A stretch of DNA of 64,000 bases from Actinomycetospora termitidis (GTDB lineage: Bacteria; Actinomycetota; Actinomycetes; Mycobacteriales; Pseudonocardiaceae), in the NCBI RefSeq assembly GCF_030286555.1, contig NZ_JASVWF010000001.1, positions 1,054,001 to 1,118,000 of the forward strand, given 5' to 3'. Position 1 is the first letter of the stretch, and the number at the start of each line of letters is the position of its first letter. A program made the position numbers and the translations under genes. The notes beneath the pieces were generated by a model. That model was not told the origin of the DNA. It searched no databases and saw only the letters and a program-made list of their open reading frames with translations. This document shows positions 35,131 through 47,702 of this stretch, piece after piece.

Positions 35131-36423
35131 TCAGTCCCGGCCGCGGGTGCGGGTGGCCCGCTTCGGTGCGGGCCGGGGACGACGGCCGGTGCGGCGGGGT
35201 GCGGGGGTGTCCTCCGGCGGCGGGGTGGGCGCGGCGGCGGGCAACGGACGCCGGGCGGCGCGGCGCGGGCGGCGGGACGGCAGACCGGACTCGATCGCGG
35301 CCGGGGGATCGTGCCGGTCGAGGAAGGCGCAGAGGGCGGGCCAGAGCCGGTCGCGCGACGCCCGTCCGCACAGCACGCCGAGGTGCCCGCCCGGGGCCGT
35401 CATGAGAGACGCGTCCGCGGACGTGAGCACCCCGGAACCGGCCCGCACCGCGCGGGGCGGCACCACGGTGTCGTCCTCGCCCGCCACGAGCAGGACCGGA
35501 CGTTCGAGGCGCCCGAGGTCGATCTCGTGGCCCGCCACCCGGACCCGGCCCGACGCGAGTTCGCGGCCGTCGACCATCGCGTGGAACGAGGCCCCGACCT
35601 GGCCGGCCTGCGCGCCGACGATCGCCCGGACGTCGTCGACGGCTTCGAGCTGGGCGAGGAAGTCCCGGTCCGCGAGGTGGGCGAGGACGGTCAAGGGGGT
35701 GGTGAGCAGCGTGCCGACCGACCCGGCGGACAGCACGGACGGGACGCCCGGCAGGGTCGGCAGGAGCCCGAGCAGGGCCTGGGTGGTCGCGAGCACCGGC
35801 CCCCCGGCCGCCAGGGCCAACGGGCGCACGGGCACGCGTTCCGGGACCGGCTCGAGGGTGAACGGGGTCGCGATCGCGGTGACCGAGGCGATGGGGAGGC
35901 CCGGGTCGTCGGCCGCGGCGAGCAGCGTCGCGAGCCCCCCGATCGACCAGCCGACGACGTGCACCGGTGCTCCGTCGTGGTGCGCGGACACGGTGCGCAC
36001 GACGTGCGGGAGGATGTCCTCCACCCAGCGCGCGAGGTCGGCGGGGGAGGCGGGGACCGGGGTCTCGTGCCCGACGACGTCCTCGTCGTCGACCTGGTGG
36101 ACGTGCCGGCCCTCGCCGACGAGGTGCTCGACGAGGCTGCAGCCCCGTCGCAGGTCGAACGCGACCCCGCACGCCCCCAGCGGGGAGACCAGCAGCACCG
36201 GGGCGCCGCGCAGCCGCGCGGTCGGGTGCACGGCATAGCGGTAGGTGCTGACCTGGCCCGAGCGCGCGAGCCCGTGCGCGCGCCCCACCGCCCACGCGTC
36301 GGGGTCGGCGGGTCCGGTGTCGATGGCGACGCGCGGCATGCGGCGCAGGTCGGCGAGCGGGCCCTCGATCACCCGGTCACGGACGTTGGCGAGCGCCCGC
36401 GCGACAGTCCTCGGTGTGAACAC
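35131..36423 (-). CDS. alpha/beta hydrolase, PHA synthase-like
   Basis: A 430-residue alpha/beta-hydrolase related to poly(hydroxyalkanoate) synthase-like proteins of actinobacteria. The nucleophile elbow is HVVGWSIGGLATLLAA near residue 170, with Ser where true PHA synthases have Cys. The acid in VLLVAGEDDTVVPP and a late histidine in GGHLGVL complete a triad. A basic Pro/Arg-rich C-terminal tail of about 60 residues follows. GTG 36423 (VFTPRTVARAL) was chosen. It probably acts on an acyl ester or acyl-CoA; the substrate is unknown. Confidence 0.75.
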   Translation of the reverse strand: MFTPRTVARALANVRDRVIEGPLADLRRMPRVAIDTGPADPDAWAVGRAHGLARSGQVSTYRYAVHPTARLRGAPVLLVSPLGACGVAFDLRRGCSLVEHLVGEGRHVHQVDDEDVVGHETPVPASPADLARWVEDILPHVVRTVSAHHDGAPVHVVGWSIGGLATLLAAADDPGLPIASVTAIATPFTLEPVPERVPVRPLALAAGGPVLATTQALLGLLPTLPGVPSVLSAGSVGTLLTTPLTVLAHLADRDFLAQLEAVDDVRAIVGAQAGQVGASFHAMVDGRELASGRVRVAGHEIDLGRLERPVLLVAGEDDTVVPPRAVRAGSGVLTSADASLMTAPGGHLGVLCGRASRDRLWPALCAFLDRHDPPAAIESGLPSRRPRRAARRPLPAAAPTPPPEDTPAPRRTGRRPRPAPKRATRTRGRD

Positions 36424-36491
36424 GCCGCCCCCTCGCCCTCGGTCGCGATGATCGTGCCACCACCGCGGCCGGTCCTGCCCGACGGAGAGGG

Positions 36492-37640
36492 TCAGGCCTG
36501 GCTGACCACCCCGGCGGCCCGCAGCTTCTCCACGCGGTCGGCGTCCAGGCCCCACGCCGTGAGCGCCTCGACCGTGTGCTGGCCCGGGAGGGGCGGCGTC
36601 GTCGGGGCGGCGCTGGGCGTGCGGTCGAACCGCGGCGCGGGCGCCGGCTGGCGCACCCCGAAGGCCTCGGTGATGGTGCCGCGCGCCGCGATGTGCGGGT
36701 GCTCGGCCGCCTCCTCCATCTCCAGCACCGCGGCCACGCAGGCCTCGGTCGGCTCGAGGTCGGCGGCCCACTCGTCGCGGGTGCGGGTCGCGAACACCTC
36801 GGTCAGCTGCGCGGTGAACTCGGGCCAGCGGGAGATGTCCCACTGGTTCGTCGCGATGTCGGAGCCCTCGAGCCCGAGCCCGGACATCAGTGCGGCGTAG
36901 AACTGCGGCTCGATCGCCCCGACGGCCACGTACTTCCCGTCGGAGCAGCGGTAGGTCTCGTAGAACGGCGCCCCGCCGTCGAGCAGGTTCCGCCCCCGGC
37001 CACCGGGCCAGAGACCCTGCGCCCGCATCCCGTAGATCATCGCCATCTGCAGCGCCCCGCCGTCGACGATCGCCGCGTCGACCACCTGGCCCTGCCCGCT
37101 CGTCGCACGCTCCACGAGGGCACCGAGCACCCCGACGGCGAGCAGCATCCCGCCACCGCCGAAGTCCCCGACGAGGTTCATCGGGATGCCGGGCGAGCCG
37201 TCGGGACCCTCGACGTGGCCGACGACGCCCGCCGTCGCGAGGTAGGTCAGGTCGTGGCCCGCGCGGGAGGCCTGCGGGCCCTCCTGGCCCCAGCCGGTCA
37301 TCCGGCCGTAGACCAGGCGCGGATTGCGCTCGCGGCACACGTCCGGCCCGATCCCCAGCCGCTCGGCGACCCCGGGGCGGAAGCCCTCCAGGAGCACGTC
37401 GGCCCCGGCCACGAGGTCCAGCAGCACCTCGACGGCCTCGGGCGACTTGAGGTCGAGCGCGACGGAGCGCCGGCTGCGATTGAGCACGTCCTTCGCCGGG
37501 TCGCCGAGCTGCAGCCCGCCGGCCTTCGTCCGGTCGATGCGCAGTACGTCGGCACCGAGGTCCGCGAGCACCATCGCCGCGAACGGGCCGGGTCCGATCC
37601 CGGCCACCTCGATCACCTTCACGCCGTCCAGGACACCCAT
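36492..37640 (-). CDS. CaiB/BaiF family alpha-methylacyl-CoA racemase (Mcr-like)
   Basis: Class III CoA-transferase fold, 382 residues. The start MGVLDGVKVIEVAGIGPGPF is typical of alpha-methylacyl-CoA racemase. RAGHDLTYLATAGVV and LVGDFGGGGMLLAVGVLGAL place the catalytic His and Asp as in the mycobacterial enzyme, and FYETYRCSDGKYVAVGAIEP follows. It inverts 2-methyl branched acyl-CoAs so they can enter beta-oxidation, as needed for sterol side chains or isoprenoid acids. An RGTCA-type inverted repeat sits 15-34 bases before the ATG. Confidence 0.9.
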   Translation of the reverse strand: MGVLDGVKVIEVAGIGPGPFAAMVLADLGADVLRIDRTKAGGLQLGDPAKDVLNRSRRSVALDLKSPEAVEVLLDLVAGADVLLEGFRPGVAERLGIGPDVCRERNPRLVYGRMTGWGQEGPQASRAGHDLTYLATAGVVGHVEGPDGSPGIPMNLVGDFGGGGMLLAVGVLGALVERATSGQGQVVDAAIVDGGALQMAMIYGMRAQGLWPGGRGRNLLDGGAPFYETYRCSDGKYVAVGAIEPQFYAALMSGLGLEGSDIATNQWDISRWPEFTAQLTEVFATRTRDEWAADLEPTEACVAAVLEMEEAAEHPHIAARGTITEAFGVRQPAPAPRFDRTPSAAPTTPPLPGQHTVEALTAWGLDADRVEKLRAAGVVSQA

Positions 37641-37654
37641 GCCCGCACCCTAAA

Positions 37655-37674
37655 TGACAGTCAGGGCTGACCGG
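37655..37674 (-). promoter_or_regulatory. RGTCA-N4-TGACY operator candidate upstream of racemase
   Basis: TGACAGTCAGGGCTGACCGG holds AGTCA-GGGC-TGACC, 15-34 bases before the racemase ATG. It shares its layout with the palindrome before the TetR gene at 41429. Confidence 0.6.
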
Positions 37675-37694
37675 AAGCGTGACGCCCCCGGAAC

Positions 37695-37745
37695 GAACGA
37701 ACGGCACCCTCGCAGCGTCTACGCGCGCGAGAGTGCCGTTCGTTC
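37695..37745. repeat. 51-bp palindromic repeat, copy 2
   Basis: Nineteen-base arms (GAACGAACGGCACCCTCGC with GCGAGAGTGCCGTTCGTTC, one mismatch) and an 11-base loop AGCGTCTACGC. It starts 21 bases after the operator candidate and ends 9 bases before the fadB stop. Confidence 0.9.
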
Positions 37746-37754
37746 AATGCAGCC

Positions 37755-39932
37755 TCAGAGCGAATCGCGGAGGTTCTGGCCCTTCTCGGCCTTCTCCACG
37801 AGCGACGCCGGCGGGTCGAACCGGTCGCCGTAGGCCTTGGCGAGGATCCGCGAGCGCTCGACGAAGCCGGGCAGGCCGCCCGGGTAGCCGTCGATGTACT
37901 GCGCGACGCCGCCGGTCCAGGCCGGGAAGCCGATGCCCATGATCGAGCCGATGTTGGCGTCGGCGATGGTGTGCAGCACGCCCTCGTCGAAGCACTTCAC
38001 GGTCTCGAGCGCCTCGGCGAAGAGCATCCGCTCCTTCATGTCCTCGAACGGCAGGCCGTCCGAGTCCGTCGCGCCGTGGAACTGCTCCTGCAGGCCGGAC
38101 CACAGGTGGGTCCGCTTGCCGGACTCGTCGTACTCGTAGAACCCGGCGCCCGAGCTGCGGCCCTTGCGGCCCAGGTCGACCATCCGGTCCACGATCGCGT
38201 CCGACGGGTGCGGCGTCCACGTGCCGCCGGCCGCCTCGACACCCTTGCGGGTCTCCTCGCGGATGTGCTGCGGCAGCGTCAGGGTCAGCTCGTCCATCAG
38301 CTGCAGCGGCGGCGCCGGGTAGCCCGCCTGCGAGCCGGCCTGCTCGATGGCCGCCGGCGCCGCACCCTCGCCGAGCATGGCGACGGCCTCGTTGATGAAC
38401 GTGCCGATGACGCGGCTGGTGAAGAACCCGCGCGAGTCCGACACGACGATCGGGGTCTTGCGGATCTGCAGCGCGATGTCGACCGCCTTCGCCAGCGTGG
38501 CGTCGGAGGTCTTCTCGCCCTTGATGATCTCCAGCAGCGGCATCTTGTCGACCGGCGAGAAGAAGTGCAGGCCCACGAAGTCCTCGGGCCGCTCGACGCC
38601 GGTCGCGAGGTCGGTGATGGGCAGCGTCGAGGTGTTCGAGCCCAGCACCGCGTCGGGCGCGAGGTACGGGTAGATCTCGGCGAAGACCTGCTTCTTGAGG
38701 TCCGGGCTCTCGAAGACGGCCTCGATGACGAGGTCGGCGCCCTGCGCGTCCTCGGGCTTCTCCGACGGCGTGATCCGGGCGAGGATCGCGTCCGCCTTCT
38801 CCTGGGTCTGCTTGCCGCGCGAGACGGCCTTGTCCAGGATCTTCTTCGAGTAGTCCTTGCCCTTCTCGGCGTTGGCCAGGGCGACGTCCTTGAGGACCAC
38901 GTCGATCCCGGCGACCGCGCACGAGTACGCGATGCCCGCGCCCATCATCCCGGCGCCGAGCACGACCACCTTGGACGCGGTGTGCTTCTCGTAGCCGTCC
39001 GGGCGCGAGCCGCCCTTGTTGATCGACTGCAGGTCGAAGAAGAACGCGTTGATCATGTTCGTCGAGACCTGCCCGACGACGAGGTCGGCGAAGTAGCGCG
39101 ACTCGATCTTGGCGGCGTTGTCGATGTCGACCTGCGAGCCCTCGACCGCGGCGCACATGATGTTGTACGGCGCCGGCATCGGGGCGTTCTTGAGCTGCTT
39201 GCGCAGGTTCGCCGGGAACGCGGGGAGGTTCGCCGCGAACTTCGGCACCGACGGGGTGCCGCCGGGGATCTTGTAGCCCTTGACGTCCCAGGGCTGCACG
39301 GCCTCGGGGTTGGCCTTCAGCCACTCCTTGGCCTTGCTCAGCAGCTCGTCGGGGGAGTCCACGACCTCGTCGACGAGGCCGGTCTCCTGCGCCGCGCGCG
39401 GGTTGCGCTGCTGGCCCTGCAGTAGGACCTGCAGCAGTGCGTCCGCGATGCCGAGCAGGCGCACGGTGCGCACCACGCCGCCGCCGCCGGGCAGCAGGCC
39501 GAGGGTGACCTCGGGGAGCCCGATCTTCGAGCCCTTCGCGTCCAGGGCGATGCGGTGGTGGGTCGCCAGGGCGATCTCCAGGCCGCCGCCGAGCGCGGCG
39601 CCGTTGATCGCGGAGACCACCGGCCTGCCGAAGGTCTCCAGGCGGCGCAGCGCGGTCTTGATCGCCTGCGACTGGTCGTAGGCCTTCTGCGCCTCCGAGG
39701 GACCGTAGCTGCGCAGGTCCTCGAGGTTGCCGCCGGCGAAGAAGGTCTTCTTCGCGCTGGTCAGCACGACGCCTGCGATCGAGTCCTTCTCGGCCTCGAG
39801 GCGGTCCAGCGTCGCCTCGAGGTCGGTGCCGAACCGGGCGTTCATGGTGTTCGCCGAGGAGTCCGGGTCGTCCATCGTCAGCGTGACGATGCCGTCGCCG
39901 TCCTGCTCCCACCGGAACATGTTGTCGCTCAC
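37755..39932 (-). CDS. fadB: fatty acid oxidation multifunctional protein (enoyl-CoA hydratase / 3-hydroxyacyl-CoA dehydrogenase)
   Basis: Two-domain beta-oxidation enzyme, 725 residues. The crotonase half has FFAGGNLEDL near residue 70 and NGAALGGGLEIALATHHRIA near residue 115, with GLLPGGGGVVRTVRLLG. The dehydrogenase half has VVVLGAGMMGAGIAYSCAVA near residue 335 and the catalytic histidine in GLHFFSPVDKMPLLEIIKG near residue 455. GTG 39932 follows AAAGGAG. It lies 43 bases after the thiolase gene in the same direction, so fadA-fadB is an operon. Confidence 0.95.
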   Translation of the reverse strand: MSDNMFRWEQDGDGIVTLTMDDPDSSANTMNARFGTDLEATLDRLEAEKDSIAGVVLTSAKKTFFAGGNLEDLRSYGPSEAQKAYDQSQAIKTALRRLETFGRPVVSAINGAALGGGLEIALATHHRIALDAKGSKIGLPEVTLGLLPGGGGVVRTVRLLGIADALLQVLLQGQQRNPRAAQETGLVDEVVDSPDELLSKAKEWLKANPEAVQPWDVKGYKIPGGTPSVPKFAANLPAFPANLRKQLKNAPMPAPYNIMCAAVEGSQVDIDNAAKIESRYFADLVVGQVSTNMINAFFFDLQSINKGGSRPDGYEKHTASKVVVLGAGMMGAGIAYSCAVAGIDVVLKDVALANAEKGKDYSKKILDKAVSRGKQTQEKADAILARITPSEKPEDAQGADLVIEAVFESPDLKKQVFAEIYPYLAPDAVLGSNTSTLPITDLATGVERPEDFVGLHFFSPVDKMPLLEIIKGEKTSDATLAKAVDIALQIRKTPIVVSDSRGFFTSRVIGTFINEAVAMLGEGAAPAAIEQAGSQAGYPAPPLQLMDELTLTLPQHIREETRKGVEAAGGTWTPHPSDAIVDRMVDLGRKGRSSGAGFYEYDESGKRTHLWSGLQEQFHGATDSDGLPFEDMKERMLFAEALETVKCFDEGVLHTIADANIGSIMGIGFPAWTGGVAQYIDGYPGGLPGFVERSRILAKAYGDRFDPPASLVEKAEKGQNLRDSL

Positions 39933-39975
39933 TGCTCTTCGTGCTCCTTTGCTACGAGGTGGTGGGGGCGGGGAC

Positions 39976-41184
39976 TCAGACGCGCTCGATGATGGTGGCG
40001 ACACCCATGCCGCCGCCGATGCACAGCGTGACGATCGCGCGGCGCAGGTCGCGGCGCTCGAGCTCGTCGACCATGGTGCCCATGATCATCGCGCCGGTGG
40101 CGCCCAGCGGGTGGCCCAGGGCGATGGCGCCGCCCATGACGTTGGTGCGCTCGTGCGGGAAGCCCAGGTCCTTCATGAGCTTCATCGGCACCGCGGCGAA
40201 CGCCTCGTTGATCTCGAGCAGGTCGATGTCGTCGATCGTCAGGCCGGCCTTCGCGAGCACCTTCTGGCAGGCGGGCGTGGGGCCGGTGAGCATGATCGTC
40301 GGGTCGGCGCCGGAGACGGCGGTCGCGACGACGCGGGCGCGCGGGGTGAGGCCGTTCTTCTTGCCGGCCTCCTCGCTGCCGACCAGCACCAGCGCGGCGC
40401 CGTCGACGATGCCCGAGGAGTTGCCGCCGTGGTGGACGTGGTCGATCTGCTCGACCCAGTGGTACTTCTGCAGCGCGACGGCGTCGAAGCCGCCCATCTC
40501 GCCGATGCCGGCGAACGACGGCTTGAGGCCCGCGAGCCCCTCCATCGTCGTCTCGCGCATGTGCTCGTCGTGGTCGAGGATCGTGAGGCCGTTGCGGTCC
40601 TTGACGGGGACGATCGAGCGGTCGAAGGCGCCGTCGGCCCACGACTTGGCGGCGCGGGTCTGCGACTCCAGCGCGTACGCGTCGACGTCCTCGCGCGAGA
40701 AGCCCTCGAGGGTGGCGATCAGGTCGGCGCCGATGCCCTGCGGGGCGAAGCCGGTCTTGAAGTTGGTCTCCGGGTCCATGGCCCAGGGCCCGCCGTCGGA
40801 GGCCATCGGGACGCGCGACATCGACTCGACGCCGCCGCCGATGAGCAGGTCCTCCCAGCCGGACGCGACCCGCTGCGCGACCTGGTTCACGGCCTCGAGG
40901 CCGGAGGCGCAGAAGCGGTTGAGCTGCACACCGCCGGTGGTGTCGGGGTACCCCGCGGCGATCGTGGCGGTCCGGGCGATGTCGCCGCCCTGGTCGCCGA
41001 TCGGGGAGACGCAGCCGAGGACGACGTCCTCGATCTGGTCGACGTTCATCTCGGGGTTGCGTGCCTTGAGCTCGTCGAGCAGGCCGACGACCAGCGAGAC
41101 CGGCTTGACCGAGTGCAGGGACCCGGTCGCCTTGCCCCGTCCACGGGGCGTGCGGATGGCGTCGTAGATGAATGCCTCGGTCAC
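39976..41184 (-). CDS. fadA: acetyl-CoA C-acyltransferase (thiolase)
   Basis: Thiolase II type enzyme, 402 residues, giving acetyl-CoA and a shortened acyl-CoA. The active-site cysteine is in [20 protein letters not shown] near residue 90. The [11 protein letters not shown] loop, the NEAFAAVP histidine/glutamate region, [15 protein letters not shown] with its histidine, and the C-terminal [15 protein letters not shown] with the second cysteine are all present. GTG 41184 follows GGAAGGG. It is the first gene of the fadA-fadB unit, preceded by an RGTCA-type inverted repeat. Confidence 0.95.
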
Positions 41185-41237
41185 GGGCGGTGTCCCTTCC
41201 ATACGGCACGTCGAGCACCCGGGCTGGCGCGTGCTCC

Positions 41238-41257
41238 TGACAGTCATGATGGACTGT
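41238..41257 (-). promoter_or_regulatory. RGTCA-N4-TGACY operator candidate upstream of fadA
   Basis: TGACAGTCATGATGGACTGT holds AGTCA-TGAT-GGACT and a wider ACAGTC/GACTGT pair. It lies 54-73 bases before the thiolase start. Confidence 0.6.
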
Positions 41258-41352
41258 TTGTGGCGCCTGTCAACGGGGTGAACGGTGACGTTACCGGCCG
41301 GTAGGGGTCAGGAGAAGGTCGAGTCCCCGATGTCGGTGACCCCGCGGGCGCA

Positions 41353-41376
41353 GTGACGGTCAACGTTGACCGTCAC
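41353..41376. promoter_or_regulatory. 24-bp perfect palindrome, likely TetR operator
   Basis: A perfect 24-base palindrome with half GTGACGGTCAAC, containing GGTCA-ACGT-TGACC. It lies 53-76 bases before the TetR ATG and about 170 bases before fadA on the other strand. It is probably the autoregulatory site. Confidence 0.75.
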
Positions 41377-41428
41377 GGGTACGGTCGGCGACGATCTGTG
41401 GCCGTCGACCACCGGGAGGGAGGGCCCC

Positions 41429-42112
41429 ATGACCGCAGGGAACGGGGCGGACGCCCCGGTGGACGCCGTCGAGCGCGAGATCCCGGAGCCGGCCGGCCGC
41501 CGCGGGACGGCCACGCGCCGCTCGCGCGAGCAGCGGACCTCCGACAGCCGGGTCCGCATCCTGGACGCGGCCGTCGCCTGCCTCGTGGAGTCGGGCTACG
41601 CCGGCACCACGACCCTGACGATCCAGGCCCGGGCGGGGGTGTCCCGCGGTCGGCTGCTGCACCACTTCCCGTCGAAGGAGAACCTGCTGGTCGCGGCCGC
41701 GCAGCACCTCGCGGCGACCCGCTTCGCCTCGGACGGGCTGGCCGCGGCCGAGCTGCCCGACCCGCGTCAGGACCCCGTCGCGCACCTCGACCGCGTGGTC
41801 GACGAGATGTGGAAGACCTACCAGCAGCCCTACTTCTGGGCGTCGGTCGAGCTCTGGACCGCCGCCCGCACGGACGCGGCGCTCGCGGCCGCCCTGCTGC
41901 CCGCGGAGCGACGTCTGGGCGCGGCGATCCGGCAGACGCTCGACGCCGTGTTCGAGCCGTACACCGAGCACGCCTTCTACCCGTTGGTGCGCGAGATGCT
42001 GCTGACCGGGATGCGCGGGGTGGCCCTCACCTACGGTTTCGACCCGCGGGACGCCGCCACCGACCCGCACGTCGCGCAGTGGAAGCAGATGACGCGGGTC
42101 CTGCTCGACTGA
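41429..42112 (+). CDS. TetR/AcrR family regulator (likely lipid regulon repressor)
   Basis: A 227-residue regulator. The HTH region is RILDAAVACLVESGYAGTTT then ARAGVSRGRLLHHFPSKENL, with the standard TetR start about 45 residues in. The variable C-terminal domain (residues 100-227) is helical and probably binds an acyl-CoA or lipid; that is inference. ATG 41429 follows GGGAGGGAGGG; an upstream GTG at 41366 falls inside the palindrome. It is divergent from fadA, and four nearby lipid genes carry matching half-sites. Confidence 0.9.
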   Translation: MTAGNGADAPVDAVEREIPEPAGRRGTATRRSREQRTSDSRVRILDAAVACLVESGYAGTTTLTIQARAGVSRGRLLHHFPSKENLLVAAAQHLAATRFASDGLAAAELPDPRQDPVAHLDRVVDEMWKTYQQPYFWASVELWTAARTDAALAAALLPAERRLGAAIRQTLDAVFEPYTEHAFYPLVREMLLTGMRGVALTYGFDPRDAATDPHVAQWKQMTRVLLD

Positions 42113-42118
42113 ATCCCG

Positions 42119-42985
42119 TCACCGCGCGTGGGCGCGCACCGCCCGGGCGTAGGCCTCCGGGGTGCGGCCGAGGGCGGCGCGGAAGTCGCGGACGAGGTGG
42201 GCCTGGTCGGCGTAGCCCAGCGATCCCGCGACCTCGGCCCAGCTGACCCGGGCCCCGTCCCGCACCGCCTCGGCGGCCTCGAGCAGCCGGTACCGGCGCA
42301 GCACGTACGTCGGGGACACGCCGGCGCAGCGGGCGAAGGATCGCTGCAGGGCGCGCGCCCCGGTCCCGGAGCGGGCGGCGAGGTCGTCGAGCCTCCGCAC
42401 CTCCCGGTCGGTCTCCGCGATCCGAGCGACGGCCGCGACGTCCCGGGCCTGGGCCACCCGGGCCGGATCGGCCTGCGCGAGGGCCTCCTCCAGGGCCGCG
42501 ACGAGCACCTCGACGCGCGCGGGCTCGGCCGCCCGGGCGTCGGCGTCGTCGCCGCCCATCGCCGCGAGCAGCGTCGATGCCTCCAGCCCGGCGACGGTGT
42601 CCAGTCCGACGACGCGGCCGCGCAGCGCCGAGACGTCGTCGACGAAGGCCCCGAAGCCGCCGACCGTCGACTTCGCCGCCACGGTCCACCCGGTCCCGCC
42701 GAGCTCGCGGTCGACGAGGTCCAGGTACACCCCGTTGAGGACCGCCTCGGACGCCGTCCGGCCCGTCCGCGCGTCCGGCGTCCCGACCGAGACGTTCGCC
42801 GACGGATGGGGGAGGACCTCCTGTCGGTGGTTCCCGCCCGGTGGCAGCGCCCAGCGCACGGCCCAGACGAAGTCGACGATCCCGTCGAGCACGGGCGGCA
42901 CGGGGTGGCGCGTGAAGGACACCCGCTGCCGGAGCAGCCAGGGATCGAGGATGCCGCGGCTGTCGCGCTCCACGGGTTCGGGCAC
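42119..42985 (-). CDS. AraC family transcriptional regulator
   Basis: A 288-residue regulator with the AraC double HTH at the C-terminus (residues about 185-285): LDDLAARSGTGARALQRSFA, then GVSPTYVLRRYRLLEAAEAV and SWAEVAGSLGYADQAHLVRD with FRAALGRTPEAYAR. The N-terminal domain (PPVLDGIVDFVWAVRW, HPSANVSVG) resembles the DUF6597 sensor found on many actinobacterial AraC proteins. The GTG lies 73 bases from the divergent gene at 43059, which it may control. It is convergent with the TetR gene. Confidence 0.88.
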   Translation of the reverse strand: MPEPVERDSRGILDPWLLRQRVSFTRHPVPPVLDGIVDFVWAVRWALPPGGNHRQEVLPHPSANVSVGTPDARTGRTASEAVLNGVYLDLVDRELGGTGWTVAAKSTVGGFGAFVDDVSALRGRVVGLDTVAGLEASTLLAAMGGDDADARAAEPARVEVLVAALEEALAQADPARVAQARDVAAVARIAETDREVRRLDDLAARSGTGARALQRSFARCAGVSPTYVLRRYRLLEAAEAVRDGARVSWAEVAGSLGYADQAHLVRDFRAALGRTPEAYARAVRAHAR

Positions 42986-43058
42986 GCCGCATCCTCCCGC
43001 TGCTCCGGGTGTCGCGGAAGTTCAATCCTGCGGCGGGACGCCTCGTCAGACTGAGGTC

Positions 43059-43631
43059 ATGACCGAGACCCGGACACACCTCCACACCGTGCTCACCGAC
43101 CTCGCGGACGTCGTCGGCGGCGTCGGGGACGACCAGTGGCGGACCCGGACCCCCTGCTCCGAGTTCGACGTCGACGCCCTGGTCGACCACGTCGCCGGCT
43201 GGTCGACGACGTTCGCCACCGGCTACGCCGACCCGGAGGGCCGGGCCCCGGGCGGTCCGACCGCGGTCGAGGGCGACCGCGCGGCCGCCATCCGCACCGC
43301 GGCCGACCGCATGGACGAGGCCCTGGCCGCCGGCGCGGCGCAGCGCCCGCTGTCCCTGGGCGGGGCCGCGATGCCGGGGGAGATGGCGCTGTCGATGATC
43401 CTCTGGGAGTACCAGGTGCACGGCTGGGACCTGGCCACGGCGCTGGGCCGCCCGTGGTCGCCCGACCCCGAGGGGCTCGAGGCCTCGCTGGCCTTCGCGC
43501 CGATGATGCTCACCGACGACTACCAGGGCGAGGGCAAGCCGTTCGCCGCCCGCGTGCCGGTCGCCGCCGACGCCCCGGCGCTGGACCGGCTCGTCGCGAT
43601 CTCCGGCCGGGACCCGCACTGGTCGGCGTGA
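43059..43631 (+). CDS. TIGR03086 family protein (mycothiol-dependent maleylpyruvate isomerase-like)
   Basis: A 190-residue protein of the DinB/mycothiol maleylpyruvate isomerase N-terminal superfamily. Signs are the N-terminal helix with DVVGGVGDDQWRTRTPCSEF, and DVDALVDHVAGWSTTFA near residue 30 with its metal-site histidine. ILWEYQVHGWDLATALGRPW near residue 115 carries the second (HxWDL) histidine. Members bind a divalent metal and often act with mycothiol; the reaction here is unknown. It is divergent from the AraC gene. Confidence 0.82.
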   Translation: MTETRTHLHTVLTDLADVVGGVGDDQWRTRTPCSEFDVDALVDHVAGWSTTFATGYADPEGRAPGGPTAVEGDRAAAIRTAADRMDEALAAGAAQRPLSLGGAAMPGEMALSMILWEYQVHGWDLATALGRPWSPDPEGLEASLAFAPMMLTDDYQGEGKPFAARVPVAADAPALDRLVAISGRDPHWSA

Positions 43632-43646
43632 CGGCCTCCTCCGGAG

Positions 43647-43697
43647 GAACGAACGGCACTCTCGTGCACAGAGAAGCTGCGGGAGTGCCGTTCGTTC
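43647..43697. repeat. 51-bp palindromic repeat, copy 3
   Basis: Arms GAACGAACGGCACTCTCG and GGGAGTGCCGTTCGTTC, centre CAGAGAAGCTG, in the same orientation as copy 1. It lies between two convergent gene ends (43631 and 43714) and probably ends transcription of both. Confidence 0.9.
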
Positions 43698-43713
43698 ACC
43701 ACGGGGGAGACGA

Positions 43714-44754
43714 TCAGATCAGCGACTTCAGCGTCTCCAGCTGAGTCTTGACGGTCGCGTGGTCGGGGTTCAGCGGCATGATGTTGAGCTGCGTGACCCC
43801 GGCGTCCGCGAACTGCTTGACCTGCGCGCGGACCTCGTCCTCGGTGCCGACGAGGGAGACGGCGTGGGCGAGCTCGTCGGGCACGACGGCCGCGGCCTCG
43901 TCCTTCTTGCCGGCGAGGTAGAGGTCCTGGATCTCCGCGGCCTCGTCGACGTAGCCGTAGCGCTGCATGAGCTGGTTGTAGAAGTTCTGGTCCTTCGCGC
44001 CCATCCCGCCGATGTAGAGCGCCATGGTCGGCTTGACGTACTGCAGCATCTCCCCGGCGCCCGGCCCGATCGCCAGGCCGACCGCGGTGGAGATGCCCAG
44101 CGGCCCGAGCTCGGGGGCCCGCTTCGCCTTCCCTGCCTCCAGGGACTCGCCCCAGATCTCGTGCGCCTTGCCCGGGTGGAAGAACAGCGGCTCCCACACC
44201 TGCACGAGCTCGGCGGCGAGCGCCACGTTCTTCGGCCCGAGCGCGGCGAGCAGGATCGGGATGTCCGCGCGCACCGGGTGGTTGATCAGCTTGAGCGGCT
44301 TGCCCAGGCCGGTGCCCTTCTCCGGGGCGAGCGGCACCTCGTAGTACTTCCCGGAGTGCTGCACCTTCTCGCGGCGCCACACCTGCCGGCAGATGTCGAC
44401 GATCTCGCGCGTGCGGCCCAGGGGAGCGTCGTACTTGATGCCGTGGAAGCCCTCGATCACCTGCGGGCCGCTCGCGCCGATGCCGAGCGTGAAGCGACCG
44501 TCGGAGACGTAGTCCAGCCCGGCTGCCGTCATCGCCGTGAGCGAGGGGGTGCGCGTGTAGATCTGGATGATCCCGCTGGCGAGCTCGAGGTGCTCGGTGC
44601 GCGCCGCGATGTAGCCGAGCTGGCTGATCGCGTCGAACGTGTACGCCTCGCGGACGGCGACGGCGTCCAGCCCCGCCTTCTCCAGCTCCACGAGCTGGTC
44701 GACGGTCTCGCGGAACCCCTCGCCGCTGTAGGCGAGGCTCATCCCGATCTTCAC
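43714..44754 (-). CDS. LLM class F420-dependent oxidoreductase
   Basis: Luciferase-like TIM-barrel oxidoreductase of 346 residues, probably using F420H2. The N-terminus KIGMSLAYSGEGFRETVDQL is typical, and YIAARTEHLELASGIIQIYT and GRFTLGIGASGPQVIEGFHG near residue 100 are hallmark LLM segments. The substrate cannot be read from sequence. An RGTCA-type inverted repeat lies 45-64 bases upstream. Probably cotranscribed with, or separately controlled from, the upstream acyl-CoA dehydrogenase. Confidence 0.9.
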   Translation of the reverse strand: MKIGMSLAYSGEGFRETVDQLVELEKAGLDAVAVREAYTFDAISQLGYIAARTEHLELASGIIQIYTRTPSLTAMTAAGLDYVSDGRFTLGIGASGPQVIEGFHGIKYDAPLGRTREIVDICRQVWRREKVQHSGKYYEVPLAPEKGTGLGKPLKLINHPVRADIPILLAALGPKNVALAAELVQVWEPLFFHPGKAHEIWGESLEAGKAKRAPELGPLGISTAVGLAIGPGAGEMLQYVKPTMALYIGGMGAKDQNFYNQLMQRYGYVDEAAEIQDLYLAGKKDEAAAVVPDELAHAVSLVGTEDEVRAQVKQFADAGVTQLNIMPLNPDHATVKTQLETLKSLI

Positions 44755-44798
44755 TGCTGGGTCCTTCCCTCTGGCTGGAGAACGGCGGGCGGGGTGAA

Positions 44799-44818
44799 CG
44801 ACGGTCAGGGCTGACCGA
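44799..44818 (-). promoter_or_regulatory. RGTCA-N4-TGACY operator candidate upstream of LLM oxidoreductase
   Basis: CGACGGTCAGGGCTGACCGA holds GGTCA-GGGC-TGACC. It falls exactly between the acyl-CoA dehydrogenase stop (44819) and the LLM start (44754). Confidence 0.6.
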
Positions 44819-45961
44819 TCACGCGAGGGCGATCCGCCCGATGATCTCCTTCATGATCTCGGTGGTGCCGCCGTAGATGGTCTGGACGCGGTTGTCCAGG
44901 AACGCCTTGGCCACCGGGTACTCGCGCATGTAGCCGTAGCCGCCGTGCAGCTGGAGGCACCGGTCGATGACCTCCTTGGCGGTCTCCGAGGCCCAGTACT
45001 TGGCCATCGACGCCTCGGCCGGGCCCAGCTTCTTCGCGTTCAGCTCGGTGATGCACCGGTCGACGAAGGCCCGGGTGACGGCGAGCTTCGTGGTCAGCTC
45101 GGCGACCGTGAAGCGGGTGTTCTGCAGCGAGGCGATCGGGCGACCGAAGGCCGTGCGCTCCTTGACGTAGGCGATCGTGTCCTCGAGGACCTTCTCCGCG
45201 CCCGCCGTCGAGGCGATCGCGATCGAGAGGCGCTCGCGGGGCAGGTTCTGCATCAGGTAGATGAAGCCCTGGCCCTGCTCGCCGAGGAGGTTCGACGCGG
45301 GCACGCGGCAGTCGGTGAACGACAGCTCGGCGGTGTCCTGGGCCTTCATGCCGATCTTGTCCAGGTTGCGGCCGCGCTCGAAGCCGGGGGTGTCGCGCTC
45401 GACCGCGATGAGCGAGAAGCCCTTCGACCCGGCGTCGGGATCGGTCTTGGCGACCACGATGACGAGGTCGGACATGATCCCGTTGGTGATGAAGGTCTTG
45501 GCGCCGTTGATGACCCACTCGTCGCCGTCGCGGACCGCGCGCGTCTGGATGCCCTGCAGGTCGGAGCCGGTGCCGGGCTCCGTCATGGCGATCGCGGTGA
45601 TCATCTCGCCGGAGCAGAAGCGGGGGAGCCAGCGCTCCTTCTGCTCGTCGTTCGTGAGCTCGGTGAGGTAGGGCGTCACGACGTCGTTCGCGAGGGGGAA
45701 GCCGAGGCCGGAGAACCCGGCGCGGGCGATCTCCTCGGAGAGGATCCAGAGGAAGGTCAGGTCGTCGGTGCCGCCCCCGCCGAAGCGCTCCTCGACGTCG
45801 AGCCCGAGCAGCCCGGTCTTGCCGGCCTGGAGCCAGACGTCGCGGCTGACGTGCCCGTCGGACTCCCACTGTTCGTGGTACGGCGCGACCTCCTTCTCCA
45901 GGAAGTCCCGGACCATCTCCCGGAACGCGTGGTGTTCGTCGGTGAAGATCGTGCGCTCCAC
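44819..45961 (-). CDS. acyl-CoA dehydrogenase
   Basis: FAD-dependent acyl-CoA dehydrogenase of 380 residues. The flavin site is seen in AMTEPGTGSDLQGIQTRA near residue 130 and VINGAKTFITNGIMSDLVIV. The C-terminal LHGGYGYMREYPVAKAFLDN is present. The common catalytic Glu position near the end is Gly here (IYGGTTEI); an acid in the KVLEDTIAYVKER helix matches the LCAD/isovaleryl-type location. It is divergent from the acyl-CoA ligase gene at 46137, with which it probably works in beta-oxidation. Confidence 0.93.
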   Translation of the reverse strand: MERTIFTDEHHAFREMVRDFLEKEVAPYHEQWESDGHVSRDVWLQAGKTGLLGLDVEERFGGGGTDDLTFLWILSEEIARAGFSGLGFPLANDVVTPYLTELTNDEQKERWLPRFCSGEMITAIAMTEPGTGSDLQGIQTRAVRDGDEWVINGAKTFITNGIMSDLVIVVAKTDPDAGSKGFSLIAVERDTPGFERGRNLDKIGMKAQDTAELSFTDCRVPASNLLGEQGQGFIYLMQNLPRERLSIAIASTAGAEKVLEDTIAYVKERTAFGRPIASLQNTRFTVAELTTKLAVTRAFVDRCITELNAKKLGPAEASMAKYWASETAKEVIDRCLQLHGGYGYMREYPVAKAFLDNRVQTIYGGTTEIMKEIIGRIALA

Positions 45962-46009
45962 GAGCGAGCTCCTCTCAAGGGGTGCCGTCAGGGTCCCCGG
46001 ACCGGACGG

Positions 46010-46029
46010 TAACAGTCAAGCCTGACTCT
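46010..46029. promoter_or_regulatory. RGTCA-N4-TGACY operator candidate between acyl-CoA dehydrogenase and ligase
   Basis: TAACAGTCAAGCCTGACTCT holds AGTCA-AGCC-TGACT. It is 49-68 bases before the dehydrogenase start and 108 bases before the divergent ligase, so it could act on both. Confidence 0.6.
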
Positions 46030-46136
46030 TCGGTTGTCCTTCCTGTCCCCGCGCCGTCCCGCTAGCGTGCCGCCTCGCGGTGTGTCGCCCATCACCGGAC
46101 ACCCGATTCGTCCGATTCCGTCGACCAGGAGGCGTC

Positions 46137-47657
46137 GTGACCGCATCCGCCCCGTTCCGGCTCACCGACATCGTCCGGGACCATGCCCGGGACCACGGCG
46201 ACCGCGTCGCCCTGACCGCCGGCGAGCAGCGACTGACCTACGCCGAACTCGAGGACCGCTCGGCGCGGGTCGCGGGTGGCCTCCGCGACCTCGGCCTGGC
46301 GGAGGGCGGCCGCGTGGTGTGGATCGGCAAGAACGCCACCCCGTTCTTCGAGCTGCTCTTCGGTGCCGCCTCGATCCGCGCCGCGGTCGCCCCGCTGAAC
46401 CTGCGGCTCACCCCGGCCGAGCTGGTCGACCTCGTCGGCGACGCCGAGGCGGGGCTCGTCGTCCTCGGCCCGGAGTTCGCGGCGCTGCGGGAGAAGCTCG
46501 ACGGCCCGACGGTGCTCGTCGTCGGCCAGGACTACGAGGGCTGGGTCGACGGGCTCACCGGGCGCGTCGAGCCGTCGGCGGACTCGGCCGACGACGACGC
46601 GGTCCTGCAGCTCTACACCTCGGGCACCACCGGGCGGGCGAAGGGCGTGCTGCTCTCGCACGGCAACTTCGCGGCGCTGCTCTCGGTCGGGGGCCACTGG
46701 GGCTTCGACGACGAGTCGGTGGGTCTCGTCGCCATGCCCCTGTTCCACATCGGCGGGTCGGGCTTCGCGCTCGTGTGCCTCTCGTTCGGTGCGCGCGTGG
46801 TGCTCGTCGCGGACATCGTCCCCGACCAGCTGCTCGAGACGATGGCCTCGGAGGGCGTCTCGAACGCCTTCCTGGTGCCGGCCGTGCTCCAGATGCTGTG
46901 CGCGGTGCCGGGTGCCGCCGACCGCGACTGGTCGCGCCTGCGGGCCATGGCCTACGGCGCCTCGCCGATCACCGGCGCGGTGCTGAACAAGGTGCTCGAG
47001 ACCTTCAAGGCGCCGCTGTTCCAGGTCTACGGCGCGACCGAGACCACGGGTGCCATCACCCAGCTCGACCCCGAGGACCACGACCCGGACGGCCCCCGCG
47101 CGCACCTCATGCGCTCGGCCGGGAAGGCGTACCCGTGGGTGGAGCTCACGATCGTCGTCGACGAGGCCGAGGTCGGCCCGAACGAGATCGGCGAGGTCTG
47201 GATCCGCTCCTCGCAGGTGACGGCGGGGTACTGGCAGCGCCCGGAGGAGACCGACAAGGCGCTCACGTCCGACGGGTGGCTACGCACCGGCGATGGCGGC
47301 TACCTCGACGAGGAGGGCTACCTGTTCCTCACCGACCGCATCAAGGACATGATCGTCACCGGCGCGGAGAACGTGTACCCCATCGAGGTGGAGAACGTCG
47401 TCGCGCAGCACCCGGCGGTCGCGGACGTCGCCGTCATCGGGGTGCCCCACGAGAAGTGGGGCGAGGAGGTCAAGGCGGTCGTCGTCGCGAACGAGGGCCA
47501 GACGATCGACCCCGACGAGCTCGTGGCGTGGGTGAAGGAGCGCATCGCCGGGTTCAAGCGCCCGCGCTCGGTCGACGTCGTCGACGCGCTGCCGCGCAAC
47601 GCGACGGGGAAGATCCTCAAGAAGGACCTCCGCGCGCAGTACGGCGAGGGTTCCTGA
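46137..47657 (+). CDS. fatty-acid/acyl-CoA ligase (AMP-forming)
   Basis: ANL-superfamily ligase of 506 residues that activates a carboxylic acid to its CoA ester. The AMP-binding motif is LYTSGTTGRAKGVLLSHGNF near residue 160. VYGATETTGAITQLD, the WLRTGDGGYLDEEGYLFLTD hinge with IKDMIVTGAENVYPIEVENV, and PRNATGKILKKDLR with the catalytic lysine near the end complete the family. GTG 46137 follows AGGAGG. The neighbouring dehydrogenase and racemase suggest a lipid or isoprenoid acid substrate. Confidence 0.94.
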   Translation: MTASAPFRLTDIVRDHARDHGDRVALTAGEQRLTYAELEDRSARVAGGLRDLGLAEGGRVVWIGKNATPFFELLFGAASIRAAVAPLNLRLTPAELVDLVGDAEAGLVVLGPEFAALREKLDGPTVLVVGQDYEGWVDGLTGRVEPSADSADDDAVLQLYTSGTTGRAKGVLLSHGNFAALLSVGGHWGFDDESVGLVAMPLFHIGGSGFALVCLSFGARVVLVADIVPDQLLETMASEGVSNAFLVPAVLQMLCAVPGAADRDWSRLRAMAYGASPITGAVLNKVLETFKAPLFQVYGATETTGAITQLDPEDHDPDGPRAHLMRSAGKAYPWVELTIVVDEAEVGPNEIGEVWIRSSQVTAGYWQRPEETDKALTSDGWLRTGDGGYLDEEGYLFLTDRIKDMIVTGAENVYPIEVENVVAQHPAVADVAVIGVPHEKWGEEVKAVVVANEGQTIDPDELVAWVKERIAGFKRPRSVDVVDALPRNATGKILKKDLRAQYGEGS

Positions 47658-47702
47658 CGACGGGTCCGGCTCCCGGACCGCGGGAGGAGGCAGGATCGGG
47701 GT

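Follow-up and report, generated by a model that had tools for sequence, protein, structure and literature searches.

A predicted TetR-family repressor and its putative palindromic operators in a beta-oxidation gene cluster of Actinomycetospora termitidis

We analysed a 64,000-nucleotide stretch of the genome of Actinomycetospora termitidis, of the family Pseudonocardiaceae (C1:1054001-1118000 of 6,562,599 bases in 30 contigs; "the window" below), in which five palindromes lie between the genes of a lipid-degradation cluster. These palindromes are quite probably operators of the TetR-family regulator encoded at 41429-42112, which would repress its own gene and the beta-oxidation genes until an acyl-CoA ligand releases it. 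An earlier note on the window had proposed the adjacent TetR as the cognate, autoregulated regulator of a lipid-catabolic regulon, and comparison across genomes supports this as a sequence-based prediction. What was observed directly is the presence of the sites, with their statistics and conservation, and the way in which they occur together with this TetR.

Palindromic sites and their recurrence beside TetR genes

The exact pattern RGTCA-N4-TGACY was present four times in the window (starts at 37659, 41358, 44803 and 46014), with 0.15 expected from shuffled sequences and none of 100 shuffles reaching four. The fifth site, before fadA at 41242 (AGTCATGATGGACT), is one mismatch off this pattern, so that four of the five repeats claimed in the earlier note proved exact; its coordinates pointed to sites that are present, with numbers 4-5 bases too low. 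All five sites were intergenic (between called genes) and every spacer was of 4 bases, as had been claimed. When one mismatch was allowed in the 14-mer, the window count of seven was not above chance (shuffle mean 4.62; 20 of 100 shuffles reach seven), and the significance therefore rests on the exact sites, on an 18-bp consensus and on conservation. This longer core, ACRGTCA-N4-TGACYGT, was seen on lining up the five sites, each of which has at most one mismatch to it; at two mismatches or fewer the 64-kb window holds these five sites only, a count that is descriptive since the consensus was derived from them. The sites are as follows (mismatches refer to the 18-mer):

37657..37674: predicted operator before the CaiB/racemase-like gene; 1 mismatch
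41240..41257: predicted operator of fadA; 1 mismatch
41353..41376: predicted operator of tetR, a perfect 24-bp palindrome, as the earlier note had described; 18-bp core at 41356-41373, 0 mismatches
44801..44818: site behind the stop codon of the acyl-CoA dehydrogenase gene and ahead of the LLM start; 1 mismatch; as an LLM site, not conserved
46012..46029: predicted operator common to the divergent genes for the acyl-CoA dehydrogenase and the acyl-CoA ligase; 1 mismatch

The distances from core to start were 18 bp for the racemase-like gene, 57 bp for both fadA and tetR, 48 bp for the LLM gene, 52 bp for the acyl-CoA dehydrogenase and 109 bp for the ligase, which agrees with the 15-110 bases proposed earlier; the gene starts come from a simple codon-usage caller, and the distances depend on these calls. 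The genome-wide motif scan that the earlier note had suggested as a check gave nine exact 14-mers in the 6.56-Mb genome, four of them in the 8.4-kb cluster, and one match for the reversed-pattern control. For the 18-mer, 13 sites were found at one mismatch or fewer (control 1) and 24 at two or fewer (control 5).

The motif, drawn from the window, was tested elsewhere, in 1.30 Mb of sequence from 71 loci of other genera that encode the TetR. At one mismatch or fewer, 91 sites of the 18-mer were found in 56 of these loci, while the reversed pattern gave none, spacers of 3, 5 and 6 bases gave four, none and eight, respectively, and swapped halves gave two. None of the 91 sites fell in a called gene, as 80% of random positions do, and 85 stood no more than 300 bp ahead of a start, as do 25% of random positions; this positional count leaves out the loci L172 and L173, fetched for holding sites. 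Lipid-type genes, defined by blastp (best hit in a small genus reference set, E <=1e-10, identities down to about 25%), followed 74 of the sites (random 8%), and tetR itself was preceded by a site in 25 of the 71 loci.

Co-occurrence was examined across the order, in 298 genomes. Among the 55 that encode a close TetR homologue (E about 1e-70 or better), 35 hold the exact operator, compared with 13 of the remaining 243 (Fisher p = 7e-21); 27 of these 243 have a weaker TetR match (E 1e-40 to about 1e-59). The reversed pattern was found once in all 298. Within one family (f16), the operator was present in 25 of 31 genomes with a close TetR homologue and in one of 27 without it. Of the 74 exact sites, 31 had a TetR homologue no more than 300 bp away (paired by hand from tables). 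In a smaller sample of 61 genomes, those of the genus held 155 sites against six for the controls. The TetR-operator pair recurs in Actinomycetospora, Pseudonocardia, Saccharopolyspora, Frankia, Klenkia, Blastococcus and others.

The TetR protein and its predicted mode of action

The product of 41429-42112 carries the TetR_N helix-turn-helix (PF00440, 54.4 bits vs a cut-off of 24), and its AlphaFold model has an all-helical TetR fold (mean pLDDT 83.8). Homologues were found in all 18 genus genomes searched, its own included. The recognition segment VSRGRLLHHF showed little or no variation in either of two alignments, of which the structure-linked one has 28 rows (L121 was dropped due to stop codons, and L109, L113, L130, L137, L139, L146 and L152 were left out).

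Another regulator, be it some other TetR or a factor of global reach, could bind the palindromes, with tetR merely one of its targets. We regard this as improbable, although some observations point in its direction: the 13 genomes that hold the exact operator and no close homologue, and the distant homologues in G053, G076 and G094 that adjoin an exact site, which indicates an operator type common to more than one TetR group. The genome of A. termitidis also encodes a second TetR with 47% identity (G000:C25:433667-434227), which adjoins an acyl-CoA ligase-like gene. However, the recognition segment of this paralogue is changed to VSRGSLLHQF and no site at two mismatches or fewer was found in the 20 kb around it, and for lack of such sites the paralogue was rejected as an alternative binder. 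Against any other regulator stands also the strong co-occurrence and adjacency of the exact operator with the TetR of the window.

The TetR of 41429-42112 would most probably bind, as a dimer, ACRGTCA-N4-TGACYGT over or beside promoters and would act as a repressor rather than an activator, its own gene included, so that the system would be autoregulated. The predicted targets in the cluster are the thiolase/FadB genes, the CaiB/racemase-like gene, the acyl-CoA dehydrogenase and the acyl-CoA ligase, and those at a distance are an SDR gene and, in Actinomycetospora, npdG. A promoter-like match, TTGACA-16-CATCAT at 41273-41246 on the minus strand, is the better of two such matches in 36400-47700 (10 of 12 positions, 0.2 expected), and its second hexamer, CATCAT, falls inside the fadA operator, which would suit steric repression; this is a consensus match only and no proof of a promoter. 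Repression would presumably be lifted by an acyl-CoA ligand, as suggested by the nature of the targets and by analogy with the relatives FadR and KstR.

The protein scored below the cut-off of every NCBIfam TetR model among the matches listed (17 families); for FasR (NF053731) it reached 30 bits vs a cut-off of 330. A structure search with the model returned many TetR neighbours, including Bacillus FadR and KstR, which reflects general likeness of fold and did not guide the choice of a ligand. KstR and KstR2 are TetR repressors of cholesterol and lipid catabolism, the KstR regulon being large, and structures of KstR in complex with CoA thioesters are found, by their titles, in the PDB. Unlike KstR, the protein of the window scored 29.8 bits with NF033703, the cut-off of which is 280. 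The operators of KstR and KstR2 are other palindromes. FadR of Bacillus and Thermus has a TetR fold, controls fatty acid degradation and takes acyl-CoA ligands, according to PMC13176608; our regulator resembles Bacillus FadR in fold but differs in family score (NF053878, 21.3 bits vs a cut-off of 200), and the consensus of Thermus FadR, given as TTRNACYNRGTNYAA in PMC5597230, differs from ACRGTCA-N4-TGACYGT.

BkaR, PccD and AccR of Actinobacteria belong to the TetR repressors and act on branched-chain keto-acid and propionyl-CoA genes, as stated in PMC3920632 and PMC11596240. The predicted repressor of the window is like them in standing beside acyl-CoA genes and in its palindromic operators. 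BkaR is also autoregulated, and has a palindromic operator with the core GTTA(N)T(N4)A(N)TAAC and targets from accD1 to bkdC (PMC3920632). Here the operators were compared, and the base frequencies of 178 distinct sites do not fit the BkaR core. No recognisable account of our operator was found among the open-licence papers searched; a match may exist among the motif logos, given as figures, of a mycobacterial TetR survey (PMC4482099).

Predicted targets and points of doubt

The genes of the cluster, with their best family matches, are:

36492..37640, minus: CaiB/alpha-methylacyl-CoA racemase-like gene; NCBIfam CaiB-type CoA-transferase matches, all below cut-off, so that "racemase" is a presumptive name, from the label of the earlier note and the family
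37755..39932, minus: FadB-like multifunctional beta-oxidation protein; NCBIfam FadJ/FadB, best E 9.3e-152, below cut-off
39976..41184, minus: FadA-like thiolase; NF006090, 693.3 bits vs cut-off 514
41429..42112, plus: TetR-family regulator, 227 aa, predicted cognate repressor; Pfam TetR_N
42119..42973, minus: AraC-type regulator
43059..43631, plus: MDMPI-type protein
43714..44754, minus: LLM-class F420-dependent oxidoreductase, Rv3520c subfamily; TIGR03559, 491.7 bits vs cut-off 335
44819..45961, minus: acyl-CoA dehydrogenase; NCBIfam matches of that type, best E 2.7e-104, below cut-off
46137..47657, plus: acyl-CoA ligase (FadD-like); NF004837, 487.2 bits vs cut-off 476

Conservation was followed in 18 loci of the genus, a site being counted within 250 bp before the gene at two mismatches or fewer. 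The sites before fadA and tetR and the site shared by the acyl-CoA dehydrogenase and the ligase were each conserved in all 18 loci, and the site before the racemase-like gene in all 14 loci whose stretch included the gene.

The earlier note had described the regulon as local, which did not hold, as sites also precede genes elsewhere in the genome, and two of these (before an SDR gene and npdG) are conserved in the genus:

C1:438916: site before an SDR gene; 0 mismatches
C1:1161385: site before a second SDR gene
C2:78982: site before a biotin carboxylase gene
C11:946117: site before npdG (F420-NADP oxidoreductase; TIGR01915, 246.4 bits vs cut-off 149.8)

At two mismatches or fewer, a site was found before SDR1 in 17 of 18 genus loci (16 at one or fewer; the SDR count leaves out one SDR match), before SDR2-like genes in eight of 12 (three at one or fewer) and before npdG in 11 of 14 (seven at one or fewer). 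At E 1e-40, 11 of the 18 genomes of the genus gave a match to npdG itself and the other seven gave none. Outside the genus, none of 17 npdG loci, from 15 of 30 chosen TetR-positive genomes, had a site, and the npdG link is thus genus-specific. In 30 stretches from other genomes of the genus, chosen for holding a site among the matches listed, sites again preceded SDR1, SDR2-type, enoyl-CoA hydratase and npdG genes.

Several results weigh against the TetR of the window controlling a coherent lipid regulon through these sites. In the same 30 stretches, some sites preceded, as judged by eye, genes for an IclR-type regulator, a glycosyltransferase, an ECF-sigma-like protein or a GXWXG protein, a few lay inside genes and one had no called gene in reach; the genome of A. 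termitidis itself has sites off the lipid theme at C2:63046 (ECF-sigma-like gene), C1:625004 (glycosyltransferase-like gene) and C1:428372. No site at one mismatch or fewer was found in 15 of the 71 TetR loci outside the genus, the exact operator was absent from 20 of the 55 TetR-positive genomes of the order, and three of the 30 chosen TetR-positive genomes lacked an operator even at one mismatch. The 61-genome sample gave a weak excess outside the genus (26 sites and eight controls in seven TetR-positive genomes, 56 and 27 in 36 others, p = 0.03). Shared ancestry and the presence of several loci per genome or near-identical genomes mean that the p values and percentages overstate independence. 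Finally, a site before the LLM gene was found in only one of 15 genus LLM loci.

The sequence at C2:63046-63063 (L192:6047), ACGGTCATCCGTGACGGT, has one mismatch to the operator, is identical in G003, G014, G015 and G016 among the matches listed, and precedes the ECF-sigma-like gene in A. termitidis and in G014; it may belong to a different regulator. In three genus genomes (C22:666963, equivalent to L197:3964, and L175 and L182), a one-mismatch site stands about 6 bp before a GXWXG/DUF4334 gene.

The LLM gene, which the earlier note had counted among the targets, was rejected as a conserved one, both within the genus and among 30 LLM loci from the order search, where the window's own was the only one with a site. 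The Rv3520c-type gene usually stands directly behind the dehydrogenase gene. It is preceded by its own site in the window, whereas the other 14 genus loci lack one; two Frankia-group records have a site ahead of an LLM gene, at 27 and 45 bp, and because of these it was kept as a possible target. In three relatives without LLM there (L076, L077 and L093), a palindrome with the exact RGTCA-N4-TGACY core persists behind the dehydrogenase stop codon, and the gene that follows is convergent, leaving no obvious promoter for the palindrome to control. In L072-L075, where LLM is present, the palindrome behind the dehydrogenase is degenerate or absent. The 44803 site is thus treated as an uncertain element. 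A second LLM oxidoreductase, 67% identical to that of the cluster, is encoded at G000:C22:771483-772475.

The position of the 44803 palindrome directly behind a stop codon, repeated in the three relatives, could suggest that the palindromes form hairpins in RNA, as terminators or leader structures, or that they are copies of a dispersed repeat. However, the great majority of the sites in other genera precede starts, no terminator-like match was found at the window sites, and the bases beyond the core are hardly conserved among distinct sites. The two halves also vary independently, the R/Y choice being mixed in 45 of the 97 distinct sites that could be counted, as would be expected where a protein dimer binds DNA and less so for an RNA hairpin; on this ground the RNA-hairpin reading was rejected, and we consider hairpins or a repeat very improbable.

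Pathway, cofactor F420 and significance

If the palindromes are operators of the TetR, the regulon may serve general beta-oxidation or a dedicated pathway for branched-chain or isoprenoid acids, the substrates proposed in the earlier note. The dedicated pathway is possible but rather unlikely. It is favoured by the conserved site before the CaiB/racemase-like gene, by the SDR targets and by the site before the biotin carboxylase gene, which is compatible with propionyl-CoA handling. However, the genes behind the 91 sites in other genera are mostly generic: 27 FadD-like, 25 TetR, 17 FadA-like, 15 dehydrogenase-like, 11 SDR2-like, 11 hydratase-like, three LLM-like and eight unassigned, with classes given by the best match to the small reference set, some at 25-32% identity. 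In the Pseudonocardia locus L130 (5211-8180), the operator precedes a gene of HAD/acylglycerolphosphate acyltransferase type, followed by a wax ester/triacylglycerol synthase gene, which also speaks against a dedicated branched-chain pathway. General beta-oxidation thus fits the targets better than a branched or isoprenoid substrate, for which the racemase-like and SDR genes are hints only. An operator also precedes a gene in L111 (5096-8124), likewise from Pseudonocardia, whose genes resemble those of L130 by eye; from these two loci, lipid storage genes may join the regulon.

In Actinomycetospora, the regulon might also join acyl-CoA oxidation to cofactor F420, through an F420-dependent redox step in the oxidation of fat or methyl-branched acids. 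We put this forward as a tentative and doubtful idea, prompted by the conserved npdG operator and by the Rv3520c-type F420 oxidoreductase in the cluster.

Taken together, the sequence comparisons predict, with good support, that the TetR is a repressor of lipid catabolism, a familiar type of switch. It is widely distributed, and its operator could not be matched to any already described. To our knowledge, this beta-oxidation regulator-operator pair has no described counterpart. For npdG and the gene of the Rv3520c-type oxidoreductase, both linked to F420, the regulon offers a testable context, and the operator could let lipid regulons be read from sequence in many unstudied actinobacteria.

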